Shown one piece after another: positions 2,702 through 22,375 of a stretch of 22,375 nucleotides of DNA. Each line of letters begins with the position of its first letter. Position 1 is the stretch's first letter. Position numbers and translations under genes: made by a program. The stretch comes from a virus: the IMG/VR virus record IMGVR_UViG_3300044819_000132, positions 1 through 22,375 of that record; one strand, given 5' to 3'. The notes beneath the pieces are model-generated. The model worked only from the letters and a program-made list of their open reading frames with translations, did no database searches and was not told the DNA's origin.

Positions 2702-3190
2702 TCAGTCCTCTTCGACCATCACGCCGCGATCGAGCAGCCGCGCGAGCACGCCCTCGTGGCCATCCTTGCCCATCCAGATCGTCGTGCAGCCCTTCGCCAT
2801 CGTTTCTTGACCCGGAGAGCGGCCGACGACAGGGACGCTCATCCAGATCACGAGTTCGCACGGACGGCCGGTCGGATTGGCGTCGAGCCACTTCCGCAGG
2901 CCGCGCACGGCGGTGACGCCCTCGACGATCCACGGGCCCGGCGTCTCCGCCATCCACCGCGCACATTCCGCCGACGCCGCGCTCCAATCGTGCGAGCCGA
3001 TGAGGTTGTCGGTCGCGTAGACCCGAGCCCCGGTGAGCGCTCCAATGACCTCGCCGAGCGTGGTCTCGGCGAGCGTCGACTTGCCGGTGCGTGGGCCGCC
3101 CGCGAGGACGACGCGCTGCGCGCCGCGCAGCATCCTCGCGGCAAGCCGCTCCGCTGCGCGGCCGACGGTCTCGGCGATCGTGTCGGTCAT
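2702..3190 (-). CDS. Small P-loop kinase/NTPase within the tail operon
   Basis: 162 residues. A Walker A motif (GPRTGKST, residues 32-39) follows a hydrophobic strand (RVVLAG). It continues with an acidic residue in 'YATDNL' (D61), 'WIVEG' (88-91) and a late 'SPGQETMAKG' (125-134). This resembles the DxxL...DW...EG...R layout of zeta-toxin/adenylylsulfate-kinase-like small P-loop kinases, in which D61 would be the catalytic or substrate-binding acid. The substrate is unknown. The ATG start overlaps the stop of the upstream micro-ORF (ATGA) and has no Shine-Dalgarno site, so it is translationally coupled. A longer in-frame start at 3262 (GTG) is possible but would run across both micro-ORF boundaries. 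It sits between the tail chaperones and the tape measure, an unusual place for an enzyme. Confidence 0.7.
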   Translation of the reverse strand: MTDTIAETVGRAAERLAARMLRGAQRVVLAGGPRTGKSTLAETTLGEVIGALTGARVYATDNLIGSHDWSAASAECARWMAETPGPWIVEGVTAVRGLRKWLDANPTGRPCELVIWMSVPVVGRSPGQETMAKGCTTIWMGKDGHEGVLARLLDRGVMVEED

Positions 3191-3255
3191 GACGAGCACA
3201 CCGCAAGCGGCGACAGCGCGATCGCGACGCCCAGCAACCAAAACGCCAATTTCAC
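3187..3255 (-). CDS. 22-residue hydrophobic micro-protein
   Basis: A GTG-started ORF encoding MKLAFWLLGVAIALSPLAVC plus two serines. The whole peptide is a positively charged N-terminus followed by a membrane segment, like a signal peptide or a minimal membrane peptide. The C-terminal 'LAVC' is close to a lipobox but has valine at -1. A GAGGTG Shine-Dalgarno sequence lies 4-9 bases upstream. Its GTG overlaps the preceding stop (GTGA), and its TGA overlaps the ATG of the kinase (ATGA). The ORF may act mainly as a translational-coupling leader for the kinase, or encode a small membrane effector. No homologue is recognised. Confidence 0.45.
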   Translation of the reverse strand: MKLAFWLLGVAIALSPLAVCSS

Positions 3256-3407
3256 AAGTCACCTCGGACGTAGCGAAGAGCGAGAATCAGAAGGACGTTC
3301 ACGGCCGCGAGCGACCAGGCGCACCAGAGCCAGCGAGTCCGCCGCCGGCTCTGCAGCCGCGCGAAGCGCAGCTCGGGGAGGGCGATCCACGAAGGCGTGG
3401 CGGTCAC
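3252..3407 (-). CDS. 51-residue single-pass membrane protein
   Basis: A GTG-started ORF whose first codon overlaps the stop of the upstream gene (GTGA at 3407-3404). The N-terminal half is basic (RFARLQSRRRTR). It is followed by one clear membrane segment (WLWCAWSLAAVNVLLILALR, residues 26-45) and a short YVRGDL tail. The positive-inside rule predicts a cytoplasmic N-terminus. Size and topology fit small phage membrane proteins in general, but no holin or spanin family is recognised. It ends in a GTGA overlap with the 22-residue micro-ORF, so three successive junctions between 3407 and 3187 are stop/start overlaps. This is strong evidence that these short ORFs are translated. Confidence 0.55.
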   Translation of the reverse strand: MTATPSWIALPELRFARLQSRRRTRWLWCAWSLAAVNVLLILALRYVRGDL

Positions 3408-4051
3408 GCGCGTAGCGTGAGGTCGTAGTCGGCCTCTCCGTCCTCGAAGATCTCGTGGTCACTCTCGCCCGCCTCCGGCTGAAGCCCGGGGGCCTTCACG
3501 CGCAGCGGCTCGAGCGCGCAGCCGAGCAGACGGCGGATGGCGAGCTGCTCCGCGCGCGGAAGCGCCGCGATCGTTCCGGCTTGGAGATGCGCGACGAGGA
3601 GAGCGAGGTCCTCGTCCGTCGCGGTGGGCGACAGCGGGTTGTGCTGCGCGCCGGCGAGCTGGAGCGCCTCGAAGACGAGCTTGATCCCCGCGGGGGTGAA
3701 GTAGCGAAAGACGTGGTCCTCCAGCGCCGGGAGGTCGTCGTGCATCTTGAGGATGTCGTTCGGGTCGCAGACCGACCGCGCGATCGCCATCCCCATGATG
3801 CGGGAGAGATAGATGTCGTTCTCGTCCTCCGGCGAGAGCCGCGTGACGCCGGGCTCCGCGAGGTTCAGGAACTTCACGGTGGACGTCGCGCCGTCGCGCG
3901 TCGCGATCTGCGCGTCGAGCTCGCTCAAAAGACGAAGGCCCACTGCAATCGCTGCAGTGGGCCTTCGCTCCCAACCCTCGGCGAAGGCCGAGGGGGGAAT
4001 GACCATCGTGGTGATCGGGCGGCTGGGACGGGCGGAGTCGAAGGTGGGCAT
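3404..4051 (-). CDS. Tail-assembly-chaperone-like protein (second copy)
   Basis: 215 residues, acidic C-terminus, no membrane or catalytic motif. Its helical core ('MGMAIARSVCDPNDI', 'ALQLAGAQHNPLSP', 'DEDLALLVAHLQAG') follows the same pattern as the upstream gene at 4079..4804 ('AAKMIELSICDP', 'CDLCSPLRREMSDIEMLV'). I therefore read the two as paralogues. Small helical proteins just ahead of the tape measure are typically tail assembly chaperones (lambda G/GT, Mu gp41), which coat the tape measure during assembly and are not in the finished virion. The ATG lies 10 bases after the frameshifted product's stop, with GAGG about 9 bases upstream. The family is inferred from position and pattern, not from a firm match. 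Confidence 0.5.
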   Translation of the reverse strand: MPTFDSARPSRPITTMVIPPSAFAEGWERRPTAAIAVGLRLLSELDAQIATRDGATSTVKFLNLAEPGVTRLSPEDENDIYLSRIMGMAIARSVCDPNDILKMHDDLPALEDHVFRYFTPAGIKLVFEALQLAGAQHNPLSPTATDEDLALLVAHLQAGTIAALPRAEQLAIRRLLGCALEPLRVKAPGLQPEAGESDHEIFEDGEADYDLTLRA

Positions 4052-5336: not shown

Positions 5337-5375
5337 GAAAGGGGCGCGGCAGCCTTCGCTGCGCGCGCCCCTTTC
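5337..5375 (-). terminator. Hairpin between sheath and tube genes
   Basis: The arms 5337..5353 (GAAAGGGGCGCGGCAGC) and 5358..5375 pair almost fully, with a small bulge and a CTTC/GAAG loop. It lies 25 bases after the sheath stop. There is no long T-tract on the minus strand, so it is better read as a weak terminator or an RNA-stability element in mid-operon. The rest of 5179..5400 is GC-rich, with no convincing ORF. Confidence 0.45.
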
Positions 5376-5400: not shown

Positions 5401-7122
5401 TTACGGGGTCTGGAGAACCGACTGGCCGATCTGGTGGTCGATCTGCATCGGCTGCACCGTCACGGCGCTCATGATGCGCCCGGCGATCGGGTCGAACGCG
5501 GAGACGACCGGGTTGTTCGCGACGTTGTAGATGATCGGCGGAACGCTCAGCCCCTGGACGACGCCGTTCGCGAAGTCGGTGAGGATGGCGTTCGCCGAGC
5601 TGCTCCAGAGCTTCGGGTACCCGACGCCGGCCGGGTACGGGACCGCGTTCACCGGGAGATCCGGCGCGACGCGGGGGTTCGACGGCTTGAAGACGTTGAG
5701 CCAGTAGAGGAGCAGCGAGACGAGGACGAAGTCAGGGACGATCGCCTCGCTCGTGTCGAGACACGAGTAGTCGGGCAGCGTTCCGTTCAGCGAGTGGCTC
5801 GTGATCGAGCGGACGATGACCGCCTGCCCGCTCGCGTTCGTCGTTACCGGCGTGACGCCCGTGTTGAGCGCCGCGACGAGCGTGCTGTGAATCGGCCAGT
5901 CGGACCGCTGCGACTGCGGGGCGACGCCAGGGAGGACGACGTCGTCGTAGCCGATGCACGGGTCCACGGCTTCCGCCGCGGTGCGCATCGCCGCGAAGAT
6001 GCCGGCGATCTCCGAGTAGTGGGTCTCGGAGTTCAGGTACCAGAGGAGCTGCATCCGCTGGCTGTTGAGCGTGGTCTGCGCGAGCGTCGTCGCGGCGGCG
6101 AGCGTGCCGGTCACGGCGGCGACCGCGTGCTGCAGAAGCAGCGTGAGCGGGCCCGCCTGGTTCGTGATCTGCGTCAGCCAGCGGCCGAGGTTCGTCGCGT
6201 CGTTCTGGCAGAGCGCGATGCGATCGAACTGTTGGTTCTGGATGTACTGCAGGATGTTGGTGACGTTCTCCGCGCCGGCGCCGCCGCCGGCCGAGATGCC
6301 GCCGCCGGTGACGACCTGGCCGAAGCAGGTCCAAACCGCTGCGCCGTCCGTGACCGTTGAGCCGACGGTCGTCGGCCACGTGGGCTCCACCGAGCCGACA
6401 GCGCCACCGGTCGTGCACTTGAAGTAGAAACCGTTCGCGTGCGCTGCGCTCGGTTGCGCGTAGGTGTTGACCGCGACGACCGTGACGCTCGGCGTGAACG
6501 TGCTCCAGAGGACGCCGCCCAGGTTGCAGCTGACGCCCGGGCACTGCAGCAGGCTCTGGAACGCGATGTAGCTGTTGCCGTCGAGGCCCGGCGTGATGCA
6601 GGTCGCGGTGACGACGGCGCCCACGGCGACCGCAGTGAACGGGCATCGCGGGGTCGCGTTGATCTGCGCCGCGAGGTTCGTCGCGATCGTGGAGGCGGCA
6701 TCGGACGCGCCGATACCGACGGGGATCGTGAGCCCGGCGATCCGGACGTAGAGCGTCTCGGGAATCGTCTGCGCGGCGGTGACCAGGAACGTGAACGTCG
6801 CTTGCGCGGCGCCGCTCGCGACGGCGACGGGCGCGCCGTAGACCTGCACACCCTGAATGCCGACCGCGCCCTGCACGCAACGCGTGAGCTGGCCGCCGAC
6901 GCCGTAGAGCGAGTCGGCGGTCGGCACGTCCGGAATGAAGTCGACTTGCGCGTCCTGCACAGAGGTGCCGGAGGCGTTCGACGCCTTCATCCCGACGCAG
7001 AGGAGCTTCAGCGGGATCGAGGCCGCGCTGGTGGCGCCGGCGCCGTACTTCACCTGGCCGTAAGCACCGGGAACGAAGTCGGTCGAGGGGAAGCCGACGA
7101 TGACGATGGAGGGGCCGGTCAT
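5401..7122 (-). CDS. Tail sheath protein (Mu gpL-like) with an inserted beta domain
   Basis: 573 residues, longer than the ~500 of Mu gpL. It starts MTGPSIVIVGFPSTDFVPGA. The C-terminal half carries sheath features: 'RIALCQND', the 'GPLTLLLQHAVAAV' helix, 'GQAVIVRSITSHSLNG', then 'DYSCLDTSEAIVPDFV', like the 'RxITT...D..yLD' segment of Mu-type sheaths. The sheath contracts to drive the tube into the host. Residues ~210-268 form an extra module ('GFYFKCTTGG...EPTWPTTVGSTVTDG..VWTCFG') also found at the C-terminus of the protein encoded at 7950..9053; it is probably exposed on the sheath surface. AGGGA lies 8 bases before the ATG, and the start is one base after the preceding stop. Confidence 0.85.
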   Translation of the reverse strand: MTGPSIVIVGFPSTDFVPGAYGQVKYGAGATSAASIPLKLLCVGMKASNASGTSVQDAQVDFIPDVPTADSLYGVGGQLTRCVQGAVGIQGVQVYGAPVAVASGAAQATFTFLVTAAQTIPETLYVRIAGLTIPVGIGASDAASTIATNLAAQINATPRCPFTAVAVGAVVTATCITPGLDGNSYIAFQSLLQCPGVSCNLGGVLWSTFTPSVTVVAVNTYAQPSAAHANGFYFKCTTGGAVGSVEPTWPTTVGSTVTDGAAVWTCFGQVVTGGGISAGGGAGAENVTNILQYIQNQQFDRIALCQNDATNLGRWLTQITNQAGPLTLLLQHAVAAVTGTLAAATTLAQTTLNSQRMQLLWYLNSETHYSEIAGIFAAMRTAAEAVDPCIGYDDVVLPGVAPQSQRSDWPIHSTLVAALNTGVTPVTTNASGQAVIVRSITSHSLNGTLPDYSCLDTSEAIVPDFVLVSLLLYWLNVFKPSNPRVAPDLPVNAVPYPAGVGYPKLWSSSANAILTDFANGVVQGLSVPPIIYNVANNPVVSAFDPIAGRIMSAVTVQPMQIDHQIGQSVLQTP

Positions 7123-12215: not shown

Positions 12216-13478
12216 TCACTGGTACGCGCCGGCGATGAGCCCACCGACGAGGCCGGAGGTCATGACCTCCGCGTCGTGGTGGAGCGCGACGAGCTGCGAA
12301 CCGCCCATCGAGCCGCGGAACTGGTTGAAGAACTCGCGGATCACGAACCCGCCGCTCGCCTGGCCGGCGGCGGCCGCCGCGTTCCAGCGGAACGTGTACG
12401 CCGTCGCGATGTCGTCCTGCGACGTCGGCGGCATCTGGTCCGGCTGGCGGATCAGGATGCACGACGTGCCCCACATATAGGTGAGCGCTCCGCCGTTCGG
12501 GGCGAAGTACTTCATGCGGCCGACGTAGATCGGCGGCAGCTCGAGGAGGCCGGCCATGGCCTCGGGGCCCGGGATCGGCGCGGCGCCGACCTTGTACGTG
12601 ATGTACTTTTGGACCGACGGGTTCCGCTGGAAGGCGTGCCAGAGGTTCTCCGCCATGATGATGCCGGAGATGTCGCCGAGCGACGCCTCGATCCGGCTGT
12701 GCAGGTCGTGGATCGGGTCCGACGACGCGCCGCCGTCCCACTGGAAGCCCGACGCCAACGTGACGACGTTGTTCGAGTTCCAGTTGGAGCTGTTCGACAG
12801 CAGGTTCGCGACGCGGAGCTCGCGCCGCATCAGGAGCGCGATGAGGACGCGCTTGAGCGTCGCCTGGCGGATCTTGAGCGGGGCGTCCGCGTTCGCCTCG
12901 ACCTGCGTCGGCACGAAGCCGCCGAGCGCGTACTCGATGGTCGAGAACGGGTTGTTCGAGAGGCGCGGGTTGACCTCGGGAACCTGCGCGCCGCCGGCGC
13001 CGGCGATCGGCTCGACGAGCTGGAACGCGTCGTTCTGCGAGAAGATCCAGTACTTGTCCGACTGCTTGTTCACGACGACGGGCGGCGCGCCCATGTCGGC
13101 GATCGGCTTGAAGTTCCGGTAGCCGCCCGCGAAGTTCGGCAGGCCCGACTGGATGTGGACGGCACTCGGATCGAGGTCGGCGAACGCCGCGCGCTGCTCG
13201 ACGCCGGAGTTGAAGCCGCGATCGCTGCCGGTGCCGACGCGGCTCAGCGACGCGAGGTTGTCGAAGCCGCTCCGGTAGGCGTTGCCCGTGAGCTGCATCG
13301 CCTCGCTGGCGATGAAGTCCGCGCACATCTTGTGGACCTTCTCGTCCTTCGTGTCGTTCTTGACCGACATCTGGGCGAGCTGGTTGCCGCCGGAGTCGAA
13401 GACGTAGCCGTTGTTGAAGTCGAGATGCGTCGCCGTCGGGAAGGCGGCGCTCGAGAACGGAATGACGTGCGATCGCAT
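12216..13478 (-). CDS. Major capsid protein
   Basis: 420 residues. Position after the protease/scaffold and decoration genes and overall composition fit an HK97-fold major head protein: a long N-terminal region, a helix-rich core ('APLKIRQATLKRVLIALLMR', 'IIMAENLWHAFQRNPSVQKY') and a terminal 'VIREFFNQFRGSMGGSQLVA' followed by 'LHHDAEVMTS'. The ending 'R..GG..vv..hh.e...ts' is common in phage capsid proteins of the wider Mu gpT/GTA-like sort. A GGAG lies 8 bases before the ATG in the leader GGAGCTCCTCCC. No N-terminal delta-like domain is evident, consistent with the separate scaffold encoded just upstream. Third-position GC is high throughout and there are no breaks. Confidence 0.8.
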   Translation of the reverse strand: MRSHVIPFSSAAFPTATHLDFNNGYVFDSGGNQLAQMSVKNDTKDEKVHKMCADFIASEAMQLTGNAYRSGFDNLASLSRVGTGSDRGFNSGVEQRAAFADLDPSAVHIQSGLPNFAGGYRNFKPIADMGAPPVVVNKQSDKYWIFSQNDAFQLVEPIAGAGGAQVPEVNPRLSNNPFSTIEYALGGFVPTQVEANADAPLKIRQATLKRVLIALLMRRELRVANLLSNSSNWNSNNVVTLASGFQWDGGASSDPIHDLHSRIEASLGDISGIIMAENLWHAFQRNPSVQKYITYKVGAAPIPGPEAMAGLLELPPIYVGRMKYFAPNGGALTYMWGTSCILIRQPDQMPPTSQDDIATAYTFRWNAAAAAGQASGGFVIREFFNQFRGSMGGSQLVALHHDAEVMTSGLVGGLIAGAYQ

Positions 13479-13598: not shown

Positions 13599-13641
13599 CT
13601 TTGGACGCGCGGGCCGTTGACCCCGCCGCGCGCGTCCAAAG
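13599..13641 (-). terminator. Hairpin after the decoration gene
   Basis: A perfect 13-bp inverted repeat (CTTTGGACGCGCG at 13599..13611, complement at 13629..13641, 17-base loop) begins 11 bases after the stop of the 13653..14111 gene. No T-tract follows on the minus strand, so it could be an attenuator or an mRNA 3'-end stabiliser. The remainder of 13479..13652 carries the capsid leader and no gene. Confidence 0.5.
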
Positions 13642-14256: not shown

Positions 14257-14913
14257 TCAGGCGCCGGCGACGGTCTCGATCTCGAGGCCCATGTACTTCT
14301 TCGCCGCCCTCGCGAGGTCCTGCTCGCTCATGCAGAGGACGGCGGCTTGCGCGTCGGCGAGTTCGATCCGGTCCTTGCGGGCGATGACGCGCGCGAGGGC
14401 GGCCTCGTCGATGACCGGTCGCTCCGGCGTGCCGACGCGCGCAACGGTCGGCTCGCGGAGGTTGCCGCCGGCCACGATGTTGCGCTGAAGCGGCTGATTG
14501 GCCCGGGCGACCTTCGGATACATGACCGAGAACTGGGCGGGGAGCGTCTTGCGGAACTCCGTGAGCTGCGCGCGCAGCTCCTCCTTCGCCCCCTTCGTAT
14601 CGGAGTACGCGGCGATCGCGTCCGTCACGTCGGCCGTGACCTTCTCCGCCTCGATGACGTCGAGCGCCGCCTGCTGGGTCGCGAGCTTCGCGCGGAGCGT
14701 CGTGAGCTCGGCGTCCATCGCCGAGAACTGCGCCGTCATGGAGACGACCTTCGCCTCGGCCGCCGCGTGCGCCGTCTTCGTGGTGGCGAGCGTCTGCTCG
14801 CTCAGCGTGAGCTTGTTCGTCAGCTCCGAGACGTCGGTCGTCGCCTTGACGAGCTTCGTCTGGGTCTCGCTGAGCAGCGTCGCGACCTTGTTCTCTTCCG
14901 ATGCAACCGTCAT
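14257..14913 (-). CDS. Candidate internal in-frame start: separate scaffold protein (Mu gpZ-like)
   Basis: Within the large fusion gene, an ATG at 14913 (residue 590, MTVASEENKVATLL...) is preceded by GGGAG at 8-base spacing. It would yield a 218-residue protein consisting of the coiled-coil region ('VSELTNKLTLSEQTLATTKT', 'AELTTLRAKLATQQAALDVI') and a C-terminal helical tail. Lambda C/Nu3 and Mu I/Z are known precedents where the scaffold is made from an in-frame start inside the protease gene. Such a product would be needed in excess over the protease. This rests on start-site inspection only. Confidence 0.55.
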   Translation of the reverse strand: MTVASEENKVATLLSETQTKLVKATTDVSELTNKLTLSEQTLATTKTAHAAAEAKVVSMTAQFSAMDAELTTLRAKLATQQAALDVIEAEKVTADVTDAIAAYSDTKGAKEELRAQLTEFRKTLPAQFSVMYPKVARANQPLQRNIVAGGNLREPTVARVGTPERPVIDEAALARVIARKDRIELADAQAAVLCMSEQDLARAAKKYMGLEIETVAGA

Positions 14914-16680
14914 GGCAAAATCTCCCGCATCGCCGCCGAGGTCACCCTCGTCGGACGTCGTTGTGGTTGAACCGTCGGGAGACCCGCCGGCGTGGTACTC
15001 GACCTCGTGTTCCTTGATCGCCGCGTCGATGAGGTCTTGGACGACGTCGAAGACGTCCTCGTCCCACTTCGCGCCCGGCGCTGCGCCCACGAGATCGCGC
15101 AGTCCAAAGCAGTACTTCGCGAGGCTCGTGCCTTGGTGGACCCCGTTGGGGTCGCCGCCGCACGCCGCGAACCTCTCGCGCAAGCTGTCGAGGTGCTCCG
15201 ACGCTTTCTCCGCCGGCTCGAGCTCGTGCATCCCGAACACCTGCCGAATCCGCGGCATGTATTCGTTTGGGCCGTGCGCGTACCCGCTCGCGCTCATCAG
15301 CGAGACCTGCGCGGGCGACGTCGCCTCTTTCTGGTTCTCGCTCGCGACGAGCTTCGCCAGGTCGAGGAACGGCTGATTCGTGAGCCCTGCGGACGAGAGC
15401 CGCGCGCCGATGGGTGCCGCCGTGGCCTTGTCCTTCGAGCCGAACCGAATCGCCGGCGAGATGCCGGCGTACTTCCCCTCGCGGATGTACTGCCGCGCGA
15501 GGTCGCCCCACTGCACGAGGCCCCAGAGGTGGCCCCGCTCGTCGAGCTTCAGGTCGTGGATCCAGCCCTGCGCCGGCGTCCCCTCGCTCGGGATCGTGCC
15601 CGAGGTCGGGTCCTGCTCGCTGCAGTGGTTGAAGTCGATCGGGATGTTGCGGTTCGGGTTCTTCGCCTTGTCGGCGTGGAAGTTCCGAACGATCTCCGCG
15701 AAGACCTCGCGCGTGAGGTTGATGTCCCCCGCTGGATGCCCGGGCCACCGACCTGGCGCGCCGAGCTCGGTCCACACCTTCGGCGCCTGCGCACCTTCCG
15801 CGAGCGTGCAGCTCGCGATGGCCTCGTCGCTGAGGGAGACGATGTCTCCGACGGCGCGCGGGCCGTTCTGGCTCGAGAGATGTCGCACGTGGATTGACCC
15901 GCCCTTTCCGAGCTCGCCGTGAATGCGGACGCGAGCGCCGTCGCTCTTCTTCGGCGCGTCCTTCGAGCCGACGCCGAGCTGCCGCGCGCGGCGCGCGATG
16001 TTCCGCTTCGCCTCGCGGTACTTCGCGCCGCTGATCGCGCCCTTGTTCTTCTCGGCCTCGAGCCGGCTCGCAGCGTCACGCACGTGCGCCGCGTCCTCGA
16101 TCGGGTACTTCTTCTCCTTCGGGAGCGCGAAGTACTTCTCGGGGATGCGCTTGCGCGTTTTGGCCGTGAGGACGGACATCTGCTTTGGCTCCGTCGGCTC
16201 GCCGCGGCGGAAACGCCCGCCGCCCTGCACGTGCACGTCCGAGGGGCCGAGGTCCGCGAACGGATAGGCGACGTCGAAGGCGCCGAGCTCAATGAGCCGC
16301 GCGACCGTCGCGCCGTAGAGAGCGGCCTGGCCGAGCAGTTCGCTCGGCGTCATCCAGCCGATGCGCGTGTCGGGCTCGAGCGCCTGCGCGTTGCCGGACC
16401 AGCCGGCCGCGCGTAAGATCGAGACCTTGCGGCCGTCGGTCGGCGACGTGATCTCGCAGACGAGCGAGAGGTTCGCGGCGACGATGCCGCACTCCTCGAG
16501 CGTCTCGCGGCGGGCGGCGGCCTCGGCGTCTTCGCCGGGCTCGACGATCCCGCCCGGAATCGCCATCTCGTGCGGGGGCTCGGGTCGCGAGACCACGAGC
16601 ACCTCGCCCGCTGCGTTCACGACGATGGCGAGAGCGGCGTCGCCCTCACGCCACCGTCGCTCCTCCTCGGGGGAGGCCAT
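14257..16680 (-). CDS. Nudix hydrolase - Mu gpI-like prohead protease - scaffold fusion
   Basis: 807 residues in one open frame. Residues ~10-140 are a Nudix domain with a complete Nudix box (G44 x5 E50 x7 R58-E-T-L-E-E-C-G-I66), the metal-binding signature of nucleoside-diphosphate-X hydrolases. Residues ~178-237 ('KYPIEDAAHVRDAASRLE', 'AKRNIARRARQLGV') look like a small phage-associated helical domain (DUF6582-like, tentative). Residues ~318-440 resemble the Mu gpI protease: 'NIPIDFNH' (H352), 'AQGWIHDLKL', 'IREGKYAGISPAIRF' (S408). Residues ~590-720 are a coiled coil typical of scaffolds. The protease would cleave scaffold and capsid during head maturation. The ATG is one base after the preceding stop. 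Nested starts are possible at M168 and M590. The Nudix fusion is unusual; its substrate is unknown. Confidence 0.8.
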   Translation of the reverse strand: MASPEEERRWREGDAALAIVVNAAGEVLVVSRPEPPHEMAIPGGIVEPGEDAEAAARRETLEECGIVAANLSLVCEITSPTDGRKVSILRAAGWSGNAQALEPDTRIGWMTPSELLGQAALYGATVARLIELGAFDVAYPFADLGPSDVHVQGGGRFRRGEPTEPKQMSVLTAKTRKRIPEKYFALPKEKKYPIEDAAHVRDAASRLEAEKNKGAISGAKYREAKRNIARRARQLGVGSKDAPKKSDGARVRIHGELGKGGSIHVRHLSSQNGPRAVGDIVSLSDEAIASCTLAEGAQAPKVWTELGAPGRWPGHPAGDINLTREVFAEIVRNFHADKAKNPNRNIPIDFNHCSEQDPTSGTIPSEGTPAQGWIHDLKLDERGHLWGLVQWGDLARQYIREGKYAGISPAIRFGSKDKATAAPIGARLSSAGLTNQPFLDLAKLVASENQKEATSPAQVSLMSASGYAHGPNEYMPRIRQVFGMHELEPAEKASEHLDSLRERFAACGGDPNGVHQGTSLAKYCFGLRDLVGAAPGAKWDEDVFDVVQDLIDAAIKEHEVEYHAGGSPDGSTTTTSDEGDLGGDAGDFAMTVASEENKVATLLSETQTKLVKATTDVSELTNKLTLSEQTLATTKTAHAAAEAKVVSMTAQFSAMDAELTTLRAKLATQQAALDVIEAEKVTADVTDAIAAYSDTKGAKEELRAQLTEFRKTLPAQFSVMYPKVARANQPLQRNIVAGGNLREPTVARVGTPERPVIDEAALARVIARKDRIELADAQAAVLCMSEQDLARAAKKYMGLEIETVAGA

Positions 16681-17157: not shown

Positions 17158-18867
17158 TTACTGGGCGGCTTGGTCCGTGGCGTCGTTCGCTGCGGCACCC
17201 GCCGCGTCGTCCGTCTCCGTCTCTTTGTCGTCGTCGCCTCCGCCGTCGGGCGGATCGCCGTCTGGGCCCGGCGCGGGCGACGCGGCGACGAGTTTGATCG
17301 GCTCGTCGTCCTTCTCGTTCTTGTCGACGAGCTTCATGCCGCCGCGCTCGGCGATGTCCTTCTTCGACCAGGGGATCGAGACCTGCGCCGCCTTCACGGC
17401 GAGGTCGAGGAGCTCCTTCGCGGATAGGTCCTCGTTCACGTTCAGCGCGAGCCGCGGACAGAGCAGCGTCTCGCACCCAGGCCAGTTGAGCCGGACGATC
17501 CAGTAGATGAGGTCGCGCTCGAGCGAGTCGCAGATCGCCGCCGCGTCGTAGGACGAGAGCTTCAGCGTGCCGCGCTCGGCGACCTCGCTCGCGGACCTGG
17601 CGCCGGTCTTGCCAGGCTGCGTCGTGTAGTCCTGACCGAGGACCCCTTTGGACATCTGCCCATCGAGGAAGAGAAGAAACTTCTCCGCGTCCATCGTGGA
17701 CGCGCCCTTCAGGATCTCGATCTTGCAGGCGTCCGGCAGCGTCGCCGAGTTCAGCGAGCCGAGCCCGAGAGCCTTCGTCGCCGCGTCGAGCCGCTGAATG
17801 TCCAGCGTCGAGGCGGGGACCGGCGTGTCTTTCTCCTCGTCGCGCGAGAAGTAGCCGACGATGAGCGGGCGGACCGAGCGCTCAAAGTCTTGCGCGACGG
17901 CGCGCGCGACCATGCGCTTGATCATCATGTAGGACGCGATGAAGCGCCCTTCGCCGTCGCGCGTCGGGTATTCGCCCGAGAGCGTCGGCGCGTGGATGAT
18001 GAACTTCCCGGGGAAGTCCGCCATGCGCAGGCCGTACAGACCCGTCGTCGGGCCCATGTACTGCATGCCGGGGCCCACGAGCCCCTGATCCCAAACGTGG
18101 AGGTCCCACGTCGTGGGATTCGAGTAATTGAGCCGTCGCGAGTGGATCGAGTGCAGCGCCTTCGGGCGCCACATGTCCGTCAGCGACCACTCGATCTCCG
18201 CGGCCGAGAGCCCGGTGATGATCCCCCAGGCGAGCGCGAAGAGCGACTGCGACCAGCGCGGGATCGCCCGCAGCATCGCGTCGACCTGGTTCGCGATGCT
18301 CTGCGCCTTCTCGTAGAGCGGGTGCCCGTCCGGCAGCTTCGCCGGGAGCACCTGCAGCTTCGCGCAGGCGACCGCGAGGACCCGCTGCCGCGTGACGCCG
18401 CGCGCGTGCGGGTCGTGCTCGAGCAGCTCCGAGAGGACATCGACGAACTGGTACCGCAGCCCGTAGGTGCAGTTCCGGAAGCACGACGCGAGGTAATTGA
18501 GGGTGAGGTTCCCCCCAATGACGATCGGCGTGCGATCGATGATGGGCGCCGGCGTGAGCAGCCGCTGCGCCGCGCTCGACCCGTCCGACCATTGCTCCCG
18601 GTCGGACGTGCCGCCCGGAATGAGCGGGGCGCTCCCGCGGCTCGGCGGTCGGCGATTGACGCTGCCGTCGCCGACGGCGACCGGGAGCTCTTCGCCGAGC
18701 GCGCCGTACGTGCCGCCCCGAATGCTATTCGGATTCGTCTGCGCGACTTGCGCAGCAACCGGCGTTGCCGGAAACTCCTGCGGTTGCTGCGCGGCGAACG
18801 TGCTGCCGAGCGCCCCAAACCCGTTGAAGCCCAAGCCGGGCAGCTCTTCGAGTGCGGAGTTGGGCAT
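17158..18867 (-). CDS. Portal protein (Mu gp29/DUF935-like)
   Basis: 569 residues. Features of the DUF935 portal family are seen in order: 'VLSELLEHDPHARGVTRQRV' (variable residue then helix), 'GIITGLSAAEIEWSLTDMWR', 'FIIHAPTLSGEYPTRDGEGR', 'SYMMIKRMVARAVAQDFE', and at residues 399-412 'LFLDGQMSKGVLGQ' followed by 'TTQPGKTGARSASEVAERGT', the typical 'DgqiSkaiLGqtltt..G.sra.aevh' segment. The N-terminal ~110 residues are Gly/Pro/Ala-rich and the C-terminus ends in an Asp/Ala-rich acidic tail. The portal forms the dodecameric DNA gateway and docks the terminase. The gene follows the large terminase after a 114-base gap with a small hairpin. GAGG lies 10 bases before the ATG. Confidence 0.85.
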   Translation of the reverse strand: MPNSALEELPGLGFNGFGALGSTFAAQQPQEFPATPVAAQVAQTNPNSIRGGTYGALGEELPVAVGDGSVNRRPPSRGSAPLIPGGTSDREQWSDGSSAAQRLLTPAPIIDRTPIVIGGNLTLNYLASCFRNCTYGLRYQFVDVLSELLEHDPHARGVTRQRVLAVACAKLQVLPAKLPDGHPLYEKAQSIANQVDAMLRAIPRWSQSLFALAWGIITGLSAAEIEWSLTDMWRPKALHSIHSRRLNYSNPTTWDLHVWDQGLVGPGMQYMGPTTGLYGLRMADFPGKFIIHAPTLSGEYPTRDGEGRFIASYMMIKRMVARAVAQDFERSVRPLIVGYFSRDEEKDTPVPASTLDIQRLDAATKALGLGSLNSATLPDACKIEILKGASTMDAEKFLLFLDGQMSKGVLGQDYTTQPGKTGARSASEVAERGTLKLSSYDAAAICDSLERDLIYWIVRLNWPGCETLLCPRLALNVNEDLSAKELLDLAVKAAQVSIPWSKKDIAERGGMKLVDKNEKDDEPIKLVAASPAPGPDGDPPDGGGDDDKETETDDAAGAAANDATDQAAQ

Positions 18868-18981: not shown

Positions 18982-20499
18982 TCAGCCTTCGCTGAGTGCC
19001 GACTTGAACGTGTGAATGTCCGGCGTTTCGTCGTCTTCGCGTTCCGGATTGAGCTTCACCATGAGTTGCGTGAAGAGCCACACGGCGGCGTCCAAACGAT
19101 CCGGTGAGCGCGGGGACACGTCCGGGATCCAGGTGCAGAACTGATCTTCGAGCTCGGCGAACGCGCCCACATGGTGGATGCGGTTCTGTTCGTAGAGCGC
19201 GGAGACCGGCTCGGCGCGCGTGGCCTTGCCGCGCGAGGCGTGCACTTTGCGCACGGGGAGCGAACGCCGCACGGTGTGCAGGGTCGAGCGCACCATGTCG
19301 CCCCCTTGGTTCACCTCGGCGACGACGAAGTCGGCCTCGTAGTCGTCGAAGAGCTTGACGACCTTCGCCGCCCATTCCTCCGGCGTGTACCGACCCGAGG
19401 CGTCCTCGAGCACGTAGCCCTGGCCGTCGTAGCCGACGCCGCCGACGACAATGCCCGTCTCGGCCGACTCTGTCCCGCTCGAGATCGCGGGGTCCACCGC
19501 GATCGCCACGGTGCGGAGGGCCGGCGCCTCGTCGACGCGGTTCGTGTCGAGTCCGGCGCGCTTCCAGAGCGCCCCCGCCGTGTCGTCGAGAACCTCGGCG
19601 TCAATTTCCTGACGGCCGAGGCGCGTGCCCTCGTACGTCCGGAGGATCTCGTCGAGGAAGTCGGCGGCGACGTTGCCGCGGTTCTCGTGGGAGCTCCCGC
19701 GGGTGAGATGTACCGTGCGGCGAACGACACGACCCCGCCGATCCCGATGGTCGTAGGTCTGCTCGAGCAGCTTCCGGATGACCGGCGTCGGCCGCGGCGT
19801 CGTCGTGACGACGCATTGCGGGCTCGAGCCGAGGCGAAGGCCGAAGCGGAGCTGGGCGTAAGCGTCCTCGTACCGCCACGCCGCGAGCTCGTCGGCCCAC
19901 GCCTTGTGGTGCTGCGGCCCGCGGAGCTGGTCCGGCGCGTCGGCCGAGTAGGTGGTCGCCTGCGCGCCGTTGGGCCAGGTGAGGAGCCGCCGGCTCGGCG
20001 AGTACTCCGGCTTATTCCACGGCGGGCAGATATTGAGCAGCCCGCTCTGCCCCGTGACCATGACGTCGCGGACGTCTGGCACGGTCCGCCCGACGAGCGC
20101 GATACGGAGGTTCGACTTGACGTCGGGCGGGCCTACCCAGTCGCGGACCGTCTCCGCGCCCGTGCGCGTCTTGCCGAATCCGCGGCCGGCGAGGATGAGC
20201 CAGAAGAGCCAGCGCCAGTCGCTCGGCGGTAGCTGCTTCGGCCGCGCCCAGAAGCGCCAGTCATACTGGAGGGTCTTCCGATGGGTCGTCGTCGGCGCCA
20301 GCCGACGCAGGACCTCCTCCCGCTTCCCCCGCGGGAGACTCGCGACGATCGCGGCCTTCGACTGGTTATCGAGGCCCAGCGCCTGCAGCTGGTTGCCGTT
20401 GGCCCCCAGTTGCTCCAGGTCGCTTGCTTCCGAAAAGCTCTTCGCTGAGCTGATCGAGCCGCTTGTCGATGTCGTCTTGAGCACTGGAGATGTCTTCAA
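18982..20499 (-). CDS. terL: Terminase large subunit
   Basis: 505 residues from a TTG at 20499; no ATG occurs in the first ~145 codons, so the true start is uncertain. The conserved core appears to begin near 'IVASLPRGKREEVLRRLAP' (residue ~51). ATPase motifs: Walker A 'LAGRGFGKTRTGAE' (103-116), Walker B 'HKAWADELAAW' (198-208, D203/E204) and coupling motif 'TTTPR' (232-236). Nuclease motifs: 'AVDPAISSG' (D336), 'VVAEVNQGGDMV' (E395) and 'RSPDRLDAAVW' (D467/D470). It pumps and cuts DNA at the portal. The sequence style is close to gene-transfer-agent/Mu-like large terminases. The first 134 bases overlap the small subunit gene, which suggests a later non-ATG start. Confidence 0.9.
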   Translation of the reverse strand: MKTSPVLKTTSTSGSISSAKSFSEASDLEQLGANGNQLQALGLDNQSKAAIVASLPRGKREEVLRRLAPTTTHRKTLQYDWRFWARPKQLPPSDWRWLFWLILAGRGFGKTRTGAETVRDWVGPPDVKSNLRIALVGRTVPDVRDVMVTGQSGLLNICPPWNKPEYSPSRRLLTWPNGAQATTYSADAPDQLRGPQHHKAWADELAAWRYEDAYAQLRFGLRLGSSPQCVVTTTPRPTPVIRKLLEQTYDHRDRRGRVVRRTVHLTRGSSHENRGNVAADFLDEILRTYEGTRLGRQEIDAEVLDDTAGALWKRAGLDTNRVDEAPALRTVAIAVDPAISSGTESAETGIVVGGVGYDGQGYVLEDASGRYTPEEWAAKVVKLFDDYEADFVVAEVNQGGDMVRSTLHTVRRSLPVRKVHASRGKATRAEPVSALYEQNRIHHVGAFAELEDQFCTWIPDVSPRSPDRLDAAVWLFTQLMVKLNPEREDDETPDIHTFKSALSEG

Positions 20500-21043
20500 A
20501 GGCGACCGGGCCGCCGTTCTTCCCTGTCACTTCCGTCTGCAGCGGCGCGTCCAAACCGAAGAGTTTGCAGCGCCGGTTGGAGAGCGCGATCGCCTTGCCG
20601 ATGGCTTCGATCTTCTCCCGCGTCTCGGCGTCCTCATCGTCGAGGATGACGTTCAGCTTCCGCTCGAGGCGTTCGAGCTTCCGCGCCTCGAACTTCCGAA
20701 TCGTGTCGATCTCCTCGACCGGCGTGGCCGCCATCTCCGCCGCGATGAGGCGGTGCACCGACGACTTGTTCTTGTGCCCGATGCGCTGGGCGATCGCCTC
20801 GAGCGAGAAGCCGCGCGCGCGGAGCTCGACGGCCTGCGCGGCGACGAGCTTCATTGCGGCCGCCTTCTTCGCGGCCGCCGCCCCCTTCTTTGGATGCGGC
20901 TTCTTCGCCCCAGGCGGGCGCGGCTTCCGCTGCCCTACGGCGCGGTGCCCCGTCGGCTGGCGGTGCTTTTTCGGTCGCTCTGCTTTGTCGTTGCTTTGGA
21001 CAGCGGCCGATTTCGGCCCCGCATTGCCGTCGTTACTTGTCAT
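20366..21043 (-). CDS. terS: Terminase small subunit
   Basis: 225 residues from the ATG at 21043, which has GCGGGA about 4 bases upstream. The in-frame extension to 21226 has no such site and crosses a 37-base inverted repeat. The first ~60 residues are very basic and Pro/Lys-rich ('KKPHPKKGAAAAKKAAAMKL'). A helix-turn-helix ('LRARGFSLEAIAQRIGHKNK') and a helical oligomerisation region ('FEARKLERLERKLNVILDDE', then 'LSNRRCKLFGLDAP') follow, the latter very characteristic of phage small terminases ('RR.kLlGLdAP'). It recognises the packaging site and regulates the large subunit. Confidence 0.8.
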   Translation of the reverse strand: MTSNDGNAGPKSAAVQSNDKAERPKKHRQPTGHRAVGQRKPRPPGAKKPHPKKGAAAAKKAAAMKLVAAQAVELRARGFSLEAIAQRIGHKNKSSVHRLIAAEMAATPVEEIDTIRKFEARKLERLERKLNVILDDEDAETREKIEAIGKAIALSNRRCKLFGLDAPLQTEVTGKNGGPVAFEDISSAQDDIDKRLDQLSEELFGSKRPGATGGQRQPAAGAGPR

Positions 21044-21080
21044 TGTTCCCGCTACTTGGCTTGCCCGCGGTGTCGGATGT

Positions 21081-21117
21081 GGCCACAGCAACACGCGGGC
21101 AACGTGTTGCTGTGGCC
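21081..21117. repeat. Perfect 15-bp inverted repeat in the divergent intergenic region
   Basis: The arms GGCCACAGCAACACG (21081..21095) and CGTGTTGCTGTGGCC (21103..21117) are exact complements around a 7-base loop, CGGGCAA. A smaller hairpin (TCACCC/GGGTGA, 21123..21139) is next to it. The element is 37 bases upstream of terS and 107 bases upstream of the divergent gene. It could be an operator, an RNA hairpin in the terS leader, or part of the packaging site. No promoter hexamers could be assigned with confidence in 21044..21224. Confidence 0.6.
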
Positions 21118-21224
21118 CGGCGTCACCCCTGAAGGGTGAGGTACCCCCAGTCCAAAGGGAGCCCCGGCTCGGAGTTTTTGTGCGAGGGTTTTCTTGTCCC
21201 CGCAGAAAGGGTCTGAAGTGGCTC

Positions 21225-22337
21225 ATGCGTGTGAAATTTCATGTCGAGATCGCGCTATCGACTTCTACCCGCGCCCGCCAAGTCGGCGCGATGTTCGACT
21301 GCCCCGCCGAGGAGAAGTCCCGCCTCGAATGGGACATCGACCTGCCCATCCGTCCTGGGGAGGGTGCCCCCTGGAACGTCGGCCTCGTCGTCGGCCCCTC
21401 CGGCAGCGGCAAGTCCTCCCTCCTCCGCCACGTGTGGGGAGAGATGCCCGAGCTAAAGTGGGCCGGCGCGTCCATCGTGGACGACTTCGCCGCCTCCCTG
21501 CCGATGGAGTCGATCACGGGGGCGTGCTCCGCCGTCGGCTTCAACACGATCCCCGCCTGGATGCGCCCCTTCCGGGTCCTCTCCAACGGGGAGCGCTTTC
21601 GCGTCGACCTCGCCCGCCGCCTACTCGAGCTGCCGGACCCGATCGTCGTCGATGAGTTCTCGAGCGTCGTGGACCGCCAGGTGGCGAAGATCGGCTCACA
21701 CGCCGTCCAGAAGTTCGTCCGCAAGAACAAGCGGCAGTTCGTCGCCATCGGCTGCCACTACGACGTGATCGATTGGCTCCAGCCCGACTGGGTGCTCGAC
21801 ATGGCGACGCGGTCCTTTACCCGGAGGTCGCTTCAACGTCGCCCCCCAATCGACTGTGTCGTCGGGCGCCTTCCCTATGCCGCGTGGCGTATGTTCGCGC
21901 CGTTTCACTATATGAGCGCCGAGCTCCACCACGGCGCGCGCTGCTTTGGACTCTGGTGCAACGGCGCGCTCGCGTCGTTCATCGCGGTCCTGCCCTTCCC
22001 CCACCCCAAGGTACGGGACATCCGCCGCATCTCGCGCGCCGTCACTCTGCCCGACTGGCAGGGGCTCGGCCTTCTCCGGACGCTCATCGACACGATGGGG
22101 GCGGCCTACGCCGGCACCGGCATGCGCTTGCGCGGCTACCCGGCCCATCCCGTGCTCGTGCGCGCCCAGCAGAAGTGGGAGACCTGGCGCCAGACGAAGG
22201 AGGCGGGGACCTTCGGCAGTCACGTGAGCCCGACGAGCACGGCGGTATCGAAGATGGGCACGAGCGCGTGCGCCGTCTTTGAGTACTGCGGCGCCCCGAT
22301 GCCGAAGAACGAGGCCGAGCGGCTCATCGCGACATGA
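21225..22337 (+). CDS. ABC-type ATPase fused to a GNAT-like acetyltransferase domain
   Basis: 370 residues, the only plus-strand gene. N-terminal ABC domain: Walker A 'VGPSGSGKSS' (56-65), signature-like 'VLSNGERFRVDLARR' (118-132, LSNGE for LSGGQ), Walker B 'PDPIVVDEFSSVVD' (137-150) and switch histidine 'GCHYD' (H178). C-terminal domain: 'FHYMSAELH' (227-235) and 'ISRAVTLPDWQGLGLLRTLI' (269-288), the latter a GNAT motif A-like acetyl-CoA loop. This architecture is the known family COG2401, with no transmembrane segments, so it is not a transporter. The role is unknown; phage Mom, a DNA-modifying GNAT-fold enzyme, is a possible functional parallel. The ATG overlaps no gene. Ribosome binding is weak (GAAG 9 bases upstream). 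Homologues often start similarly, so the start is plausible. Confidence 0.75.
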   Translation: MRVKFHVEIALSTSTRARQVGAMFDCPAEEKSRLEWDIDLPIRPGEGAPWNVGLVVGPSGSGKSSLLRHVWGEMPELKWAGASIVDDFAASLPMESITGACSAVGFNTIPAWMRPFRVLSNGERFRVDLARRLLELPDPIVVDEFSSVVDRQVAKIGSHAVQKFVRKNKRQFVAIGCHYDVIDWLQPDWVLDMATRSFTRRSLQRRPPIDCVVGRLPYAAWRMFAPFHYMSAELHHGARCFGLWCNGALASFIAVLPFPHPKVRDIRRISRAVTLPDWQGLGLLRTLIDTMGAAYAGTGMRLRGYPAHPVLVRAQQKWETWRQTKEAGTFGSHVSPTSTAVSKMGTSACAVFEYCGAPMPKNEAERLIAT

Positions 22338-22375
22338 GGCGGCGCAGAGGCGGTGGGGCCGGGGCCGTTCCCCTG

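Follow-up and report, generated by a model that had tools for sequence, protein, structure and literature searches.

What is the function of a gene that fuses an ABC-type ATPase to a GNAT-like acyltransferase and lies, in divergent orientation, next to the packaging genes of a phage? The gene is found at one end of the IMG/VR record analysed here, whose whole length of 22375 bp (the window) is probably a fragment of a larger genome. The original prediction had described it as cargo beside the terminase, encoding an acyl-transfer enzyme that acts on DNA or on a host defence factor. Our analysis suggests that the protein (ABC-GNAT) most likely adds a chemical group to bases of the phage's own DNA and hides this DNA from bacterial defences, because its relatives occupy the gene slots of phage DNA-modifying enzymes.

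The whole protein aligns with phrog_11143, a family whose function label is unknown, and a full-length match at 1e-93 indicates that the ORF did not arise by chance. The complete ABC motifs named in the original prediction (Walker A, LSNGE, the DE of Walker B and H178) are all present in the 370-aa ORF, and so is the cofactor loop of the GNAT-like domain, LPDWQGLGL at residues 275-283 (Table 1). When the window copy was searched with Pfam, the ABC domain was recognized with 29 bits, but the GNAT domain reached merely E 0.11. Over 105 relatives, ABC_tran was detected in 105/105 and Acetyltransf_1 in 78/105, with a best value of 5.6e-10. Seven residues of the GNAT domain (W221, F224, H228, Y229, R271, Q279 and G280) are invariant in these relatives. 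The GC3 of the gene (0.89) is near that of the virion genes (0.88-0.97). The dN/dS of the window gene was 0.36, 0.22 and 0.24 against three close relatives (L007, L002 and L009, respectively), and the gene is under purifying selection. Judged from the sequence, this conservation suggests that the window copy is functional, and it does not imply that the protein acts alone.

Table 1. Position of the ABC-GNAT gene, its domains and motifs, and neighbouring features in the window
Feature	Position	Strand	Evidence
ABC-ATPase/GNAT fusion gene, 370 aa	21225..22337	+	ORF ATG to TGA; phrog_11143 1e-93; AF2 pLDDT 93.6
ABC-ATPase domain, residues 1-199	21225..21821	+	PF00005 29 bits, above cut-off; Foldseek to ABC NBDs, best E 1.9e-7
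Walker A GPSGSGKS, residues 57-64	21393..21416	+	K63 invariant in 105 relatives
ABC signature LSNGE, residues 119-123	21579..21593	+	L119, S120, G122 invariant in 105 relatives
Walker B IVVDE, residues 140-144, and D-loop SSVVD, residues 146-150	21642..21674	+	D143, E144, D150 invariant
H-loop CHYD, H178	21753..21764	+	C177, H178, D180 invariant
GNAT acyltransferase domain, residues 200-370	21822..22334	+	AF2 of domain alone pLDDT 91.9; VIA Z up to 14; PF00583 in 78/105 relatives
FAPFHYM motif, residues 224-230	21894..21914	+	F224, H228, Y229 invariant
Acyl-CoA (Q-G-x-G) loop LPDWQGLGL, residues 275-283	22047..22073	+	P276, Q279, G280 invariant; G282 0.96
Perfect 15-bp inverted repeat GGCCACAGCAACACG-N7-CGTGTTGCTGTGGCC, 7-nt loop, between divergent genes	21081..21117	.	
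Gene in small-terminase position, adjoins ABC-GNAT gene	20366-21226	-	phrog_645 (label RNase E) 2.5e-17
Large terminase	18982-20499	-	
Mu-type portal	17158-18867	-	
NUDIX domain, DUF6582 and Mu-type head protease (I protein) in a single 807-aa frame	14257-16680	-	
Major capsid	12216-13478	-	
Tail sheath	5401-7122	-	

The full protein was modelled by AlphaFold2 with a pLDDT of 93.6 and a pTM of 0.86, and a Foldseek search with this model returned ABC nucleotide-binding domains (best 1.9e-7) together with GNATs. The C-terminal domain modelled alone (pLDDT 91.9) matched GNATs at E 3.6e-7, and VIA gave Z scores of 14.0 to 1y9k (rmsd 4.5 over 133) and 13.9 to RimI 5isv (rmsd 4.1 over 131). Both folds are predicted at high confidence, and the C-terminus alone is modelled as a GNAT, in agreement with the original prediction. 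Among solved structures, the GNAT domain fits best to acetyltransferases of proteins and of small molecules (1y9k and RimI). TmcA (2zpa) was present in both PDB searches, with the full-protein model and with the GNAT-only model. When viral models were searched with the GNAT domain, the best match was a family member from Leptospira phage LE4, followed at lower ranks by LP65 Orf128 (8.1e-6), a Mom relative, and by the Mom of Salmonella FSL SP-031 (1.4e-4). The solved Mom structure, 8bv8, was absent among the best 50 matches of the GNAT model, an absence compatible with kinship.

The window gene belongs to the ABC ATPase-GNAT family (phrog_11143), as judged from its ABC motif set, its GNAT domain with the acyl-CoA loop and its homology with the gene of Tenacibaculum phage pT24 (32% identity, E 1e-50, residues 4-328, covering both domains). 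This kind of protein is already known, since Iyer et al. 2013, in the part quoted in PMC7824862, predicted that the ABC-coupled GNAT is a DNA acyl-modification system, and pT24, which matches the window protein, is named there as a carrier of ABC ATPase-GNAT (PMC7824862, citing Iyer 2013). The family is large and mainly phage-borne. Relatives are encoded on at least 544 viral contigs and at 72 loci in bacterial or archaeal genomes. Among phage records, 75 contained a match to the window protein, 38 of them with at least 80% query cover at one place; the weakest phage matches listed are partial and mainly cover the ABC domain. The two domains are encoded by separate adjoining genes in Lactococcus P335 and Streptococcus Javan141. 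In Aeromonas phage PX29 (GU396103), homologues of Mom and of ABC-GNAT occur together (36066-36950 and 53320-54153). A neighbourhood survey placed the homologues in phages, beside terminase or tail genes where examined, and not in ordinary chromosomal loci.

As the original prediction had noted, all assigned virion genes of the window lie on the minus strand and the ABC-GNAT gene on the plus strand, divergent from the packaging genes. The phage is contractile-tailed and has a Mu-like head module. For the adjoining gene, the RNase E label of phrog_645 is doubtful because the gene position suggests a small terminase, and it was kept as a bare label. An ORF of 186 aa among the minus-strand virion genes (2702-3262, minus strand) contains a P-loop-like GGPRTGKST and has no Pfam match. 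The inverted repeat between the divergent genes is longer than any found in 300 dinucleotide shuffles (11 bp versus 15 bp). It is possibly an operator or an mRNA hairpin, and its link to the ABC-GNAT gene is putative; the exact core was absent from all other viral contigs searched, and the repeat was rejected as a conserved element. Further strong GC-rich hairpins with different sequences (3933-3967, 5337-5375 and 13599-13641) are probably terminators.

The partner genes of the relatives were counted by profile searches following neighbour-gene clustering. A ParB_N protein (PF02195) is encoded directly upstream of ABC-GNAT in 73/76 viral loci. In the bacterial loci, the ParB model matched in 47/67, with lone tails counted too, and 11 of the 47 were Com loci. 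The last ~45 residues of the ParB-like protein form a conserved C-terminal tail (Y.VIV.C..E..Q..L...L...G...), and the frame that encodes it generally extends over the start of ABC-GNAT. This tail is present in 80/81 viral loci, with the window as the single exception, and in 61/67 bacterial loci. The window gene is also inverted relative to the packaging genes and has no ParB. When the ParB and tail models were run over the 22-kb window, neither partner was found, and no relic of a ParB-tail gene was detected ahead of the window gene by these models. The contig ends 38 bp past the stop codon of the ABC-GNAT gene, so the partners may lie beyond position 22375.

The large terminase gene usually follows. 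Among viral loci, 39/63 have it within 4 kb on the downstream side and 1/34 on the upstream side; the corresponding counts in bacterial loci are 24/57 and 2/47. The original prediction was right about the position beside the terminase, but this position is typical of the family rather than peculiar to one phage. Within 1.5 kb downstream, a small convergent gene was found in 39/80 viral and 8/69 bacterial loci. One group of these genes encodes ASCH proteins according to Pfam, a second falls just below the cut-off, and a third is ASCH-like by eye only. The ASCH protein YqfB of E. coli hydrolyses N4-acetylcytidine. A formyltransferase (PF00551) is encoded downstream in 10/69 bacterial loci and in Pseudomonas phage Komp_PAO1_1, and it resembles enzymes that formylate the amine of glycinamide (phrog_9240). 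In the literature searched, with subscription papers largely outside it, the stand-alone tail, formyltransferase and ASCH neighbours were not found described; the literature on ASCH amidohydrolase, Com-controlled methylases and COG2401 yielded nothing usable.

Com is the translational activator of Mu mom. A com gene (PF10122) was found 108-195 nt upstream of ABC-GNAT in 16/67 bacterial loci, and in these Com loci the tail is encoded alone, between com and ABC-GNAT. A Com model trained solely on ABC-GNAT loci finds Mu Com (8e-12) and also the Com proteins of GEC_PNG14 and Komp_PAO1_1. In the Pseudomonas phages PAN70 and GEC_PNG14, mom stands behind com as in Mu (5e-67 and 6e-75 with the Mom model). 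In the Pseudomonas phages Bise and Phipami28, com is followed by a DNA adenine methylase. In Komp_PAO1_1, com is followed by the tail (gp29, 49 aa), ABC-GNAT and the formyltransferase (gp29-gp31). This phage is a transposable Mu-like phage with transposase, Gam and late activator, and it carries the cassette behind its tail-fibre genes. Its com gene (PQ287647, 22018-22341) has no annotation, and the deposited gp28 (22005-22169) is another frame over com.

We also inspected 80 viral loci picked by Com alone (L211-L290). The next gene was a methyltransferase of the Dam type in 36, a methyltransferase with a DPPY motif in 38, and other or cut off in 6; the share of 74/80 is not a general percentage, because the set is redundant and its members were picked as close relatives of a Com that is itself followed by a methylase. 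If Com regularly stands before DNA-modification enzymes, its position ahead of ABC-GNAT would inform on the function of the latter. Com may act more generally in phages to switch on the translation of DNA-modification genes. ABC-GNAT proteins of the Com type form one clade (support 1.0), including four members in which com was not detected, and this clade is merely ~32-39% identical to the window protein. A search of the window with the Com model found no com. A Com slot common to methylases and ABC-GNAT was not found described in the literature searched, where subscription papers were largely outside.

Taken together, our analysis indicates that ABC-GNAT is probably a Mom-like writer of a DNA base modification with a built-in ATPase, which would work as an ATP-dependent acyltransferase on phage DNA before packaging. 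Of the two targets in the original prediction, DNA gained good support from the Com slot, the ParB partner and the terminase proximity; the host defence factor gained none. ABC domains with complete motifs are expected to dimerise on ATP. Two ABC domains of ABC-GNAT would close upon ATP, around or along DNA, and the closed dimer would hand a base over to the GNAT domain at the C-terminus. The GNAT domain would then probably acylate an exocyclic amine of this base (adenine N6 or cytosine N4), with a CoA thioester as the donor, and this mark would shield phage DNA from host restriction at about the time of packaging. In most relatives, DNA binding would be supplied by the ParB-like protein, which may dock through its conserved C-terminal tail of ~45 aa. 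In Mu-like prophages, the tail would act as a separate mini-protein and Com would turn on translation.

This reading is favoured because of the Com slot, the ParB partner, the tail, the terminase downstream, the matches to Mom-family models, the TmcA precedent and the published prediction. It is weakened because the Mom profile comparison was not significant, the nearest solved folds are protein and small-molecule acetyltransferases, the window has no ParB or tail, the Com clade is distant and the Com set is redundant. A formyltransferase beside ABC-GNAT would be in keeping with an initial reaction whose product still carries a free amine, which is speculation. It is conceivable, with rather low probability, that ABC-GNAT and the tail subunit place an aminoacyl-type group on the base, that the formyltransferase of cassettes such as that of Komp_PAO1_1 formylates the free amine and that ASCH proteins elsewhere read or remove the mark, giving a DNA base not yet described. 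If true, the system would be a counterpart of Mom that is driven by ATP, works in several steps and has a dedicated reader or eraser.

The GNAT domain could instead modify a host or phage protein (RNA polymerase, a ribosomal protein or a restriction enzyme), as Rac of phiKMV does, with the ABC domain as a switch. The nearest solved folds, RimI and other N-acetyltransferases, agree with such an activity, and host RNA polymerase is a known target of phage GNATs (PMC7824862). However, a protein modifier would not be expected in the Com slot, which otherwise holds DNA-modification enzymes, nor with a ParB-like DNA-binding partner, nor typically just before the terminase genes, and we regard a protein target as improbable. 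Slightly less credit goes to a phage restriction-modification pair, in which ABC-GNAT would mark the phage's own DNA and ParB would be a nuclease that cuts host or competing phage DNA. Nuclease is a frequent annotation of ParB-like domains in phages, fusions of Mom domains with endonucleases have been described (PMC7824862), and the adjoining ASCH genes could read the mark. But the Com loci keep only the tail, which makes the ParB half dispensable, ParB is missing beside the window copy and the nuclease activity is putative; the pair also adds to DNA-base modification by ABC-GNAT more than it replaces it. It is very improbable that ABC-GNAT is an SMC/SbcC-like packaging or DNA-end factor acting with the terminase, with the GNAT domain as a structural or regulatory leftover: the terminase proximity is steady and ABC ATPases often handle DNA, but the GNAT cofactor loop and likely active-site residues are invariant, the gene also occurs away from the terminase, in a Mu-like phage where it follows the tail genes, and some phages encode ABC and GNAT as separate genes.

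A large phage family has until now been labelled 'unknown function' or 'ABC transporter', and the Com slot gives an independent reason to call its members DNA-modification enzymes. If DNA-base modification by ABC-GNAT is true, the family would provide an ATP-driven acyltransferase acting on DNA. The survey also points to a previously unmarked partner of ~45 aa. Komp_PAO1_1 grows on P. aeruginosa PAO1, and the question of a modified base is thus directly answerable.

Among known systems, the phrog_11143/pT24 family has the same two domains as the window protein, with a full-length match, but the window copy points away from the terminase genes, and neither of the partners that nearly all relatives carry, ParB and the tail, was found in its 22 kb. 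The methyltransferases under Com control in Bise and Phipami28 occupy the same slot directly behind com as ABC-GNAT relatives, but they are unrelated enzymes with a DPPY-type motif and have no ABC or GNAT domain.

Mu Mom carries out carbamoylmethylation of adenine N6. This methylcarbamoylase (PDB 8bv8) is a phage enzyme of the GNAT superfamily, as the GNAT domain of the window protein is, and its com slot is also occupied by ABC-GNAT relatives. The order with ParB next door is common to both: Mom-family genes of Microbacterium phage Antuna and Arthrobacter phage Sonny (L192 1969-3121; L196 145-1561) have a ParB-like gene directly or one gene upstream, which is like the ABC-GNAT arrangement. 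In the Mom family, an H-Y pair near the beginning of the domain is invariant, and its position matches H228-Y229 of the FAPFHYM motif. In contrast to the window protein, which has an ABC domain and a Q-G-x-G loop, Mom has neither an ABC domain nor a tail, and the Q-G-x-G loop was not seen in it. A single-protein comparison and one with 7 near-identical Mom sequences gave no significant match, and hhalign of the GNAT domain against 11 diverse Mom proteins gave a probability of 3%, with only the H-Y region aligned. All three fell below significance, and the window protein was not accepted as a Mom by sequence homology. The common H-Y pair and the Mom-family viral models make a GNAT-superfamily kinship possible, and we describe the protein as Mom-like in its proposed working and do not class it as a Mom.

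TmcA and Nat10 are RNA N4-cytidine acetyltransferases in which, as in the window protein, a GNAT is fused to an ATPase module. The module of TmcA is a RecD-type helicase and its target is RNA (tRNA cytidine), whereas the window protein has an ABC domain and, we infer, a DNA target. In TmcA/Nat10, the base is brought into the active centre by ATP hydrolysis, and Nat10 no longer acetylates once its Walker A motif is mutated, so a GNAT can depend on an attached base-delivering ATPase (PMC4234376).
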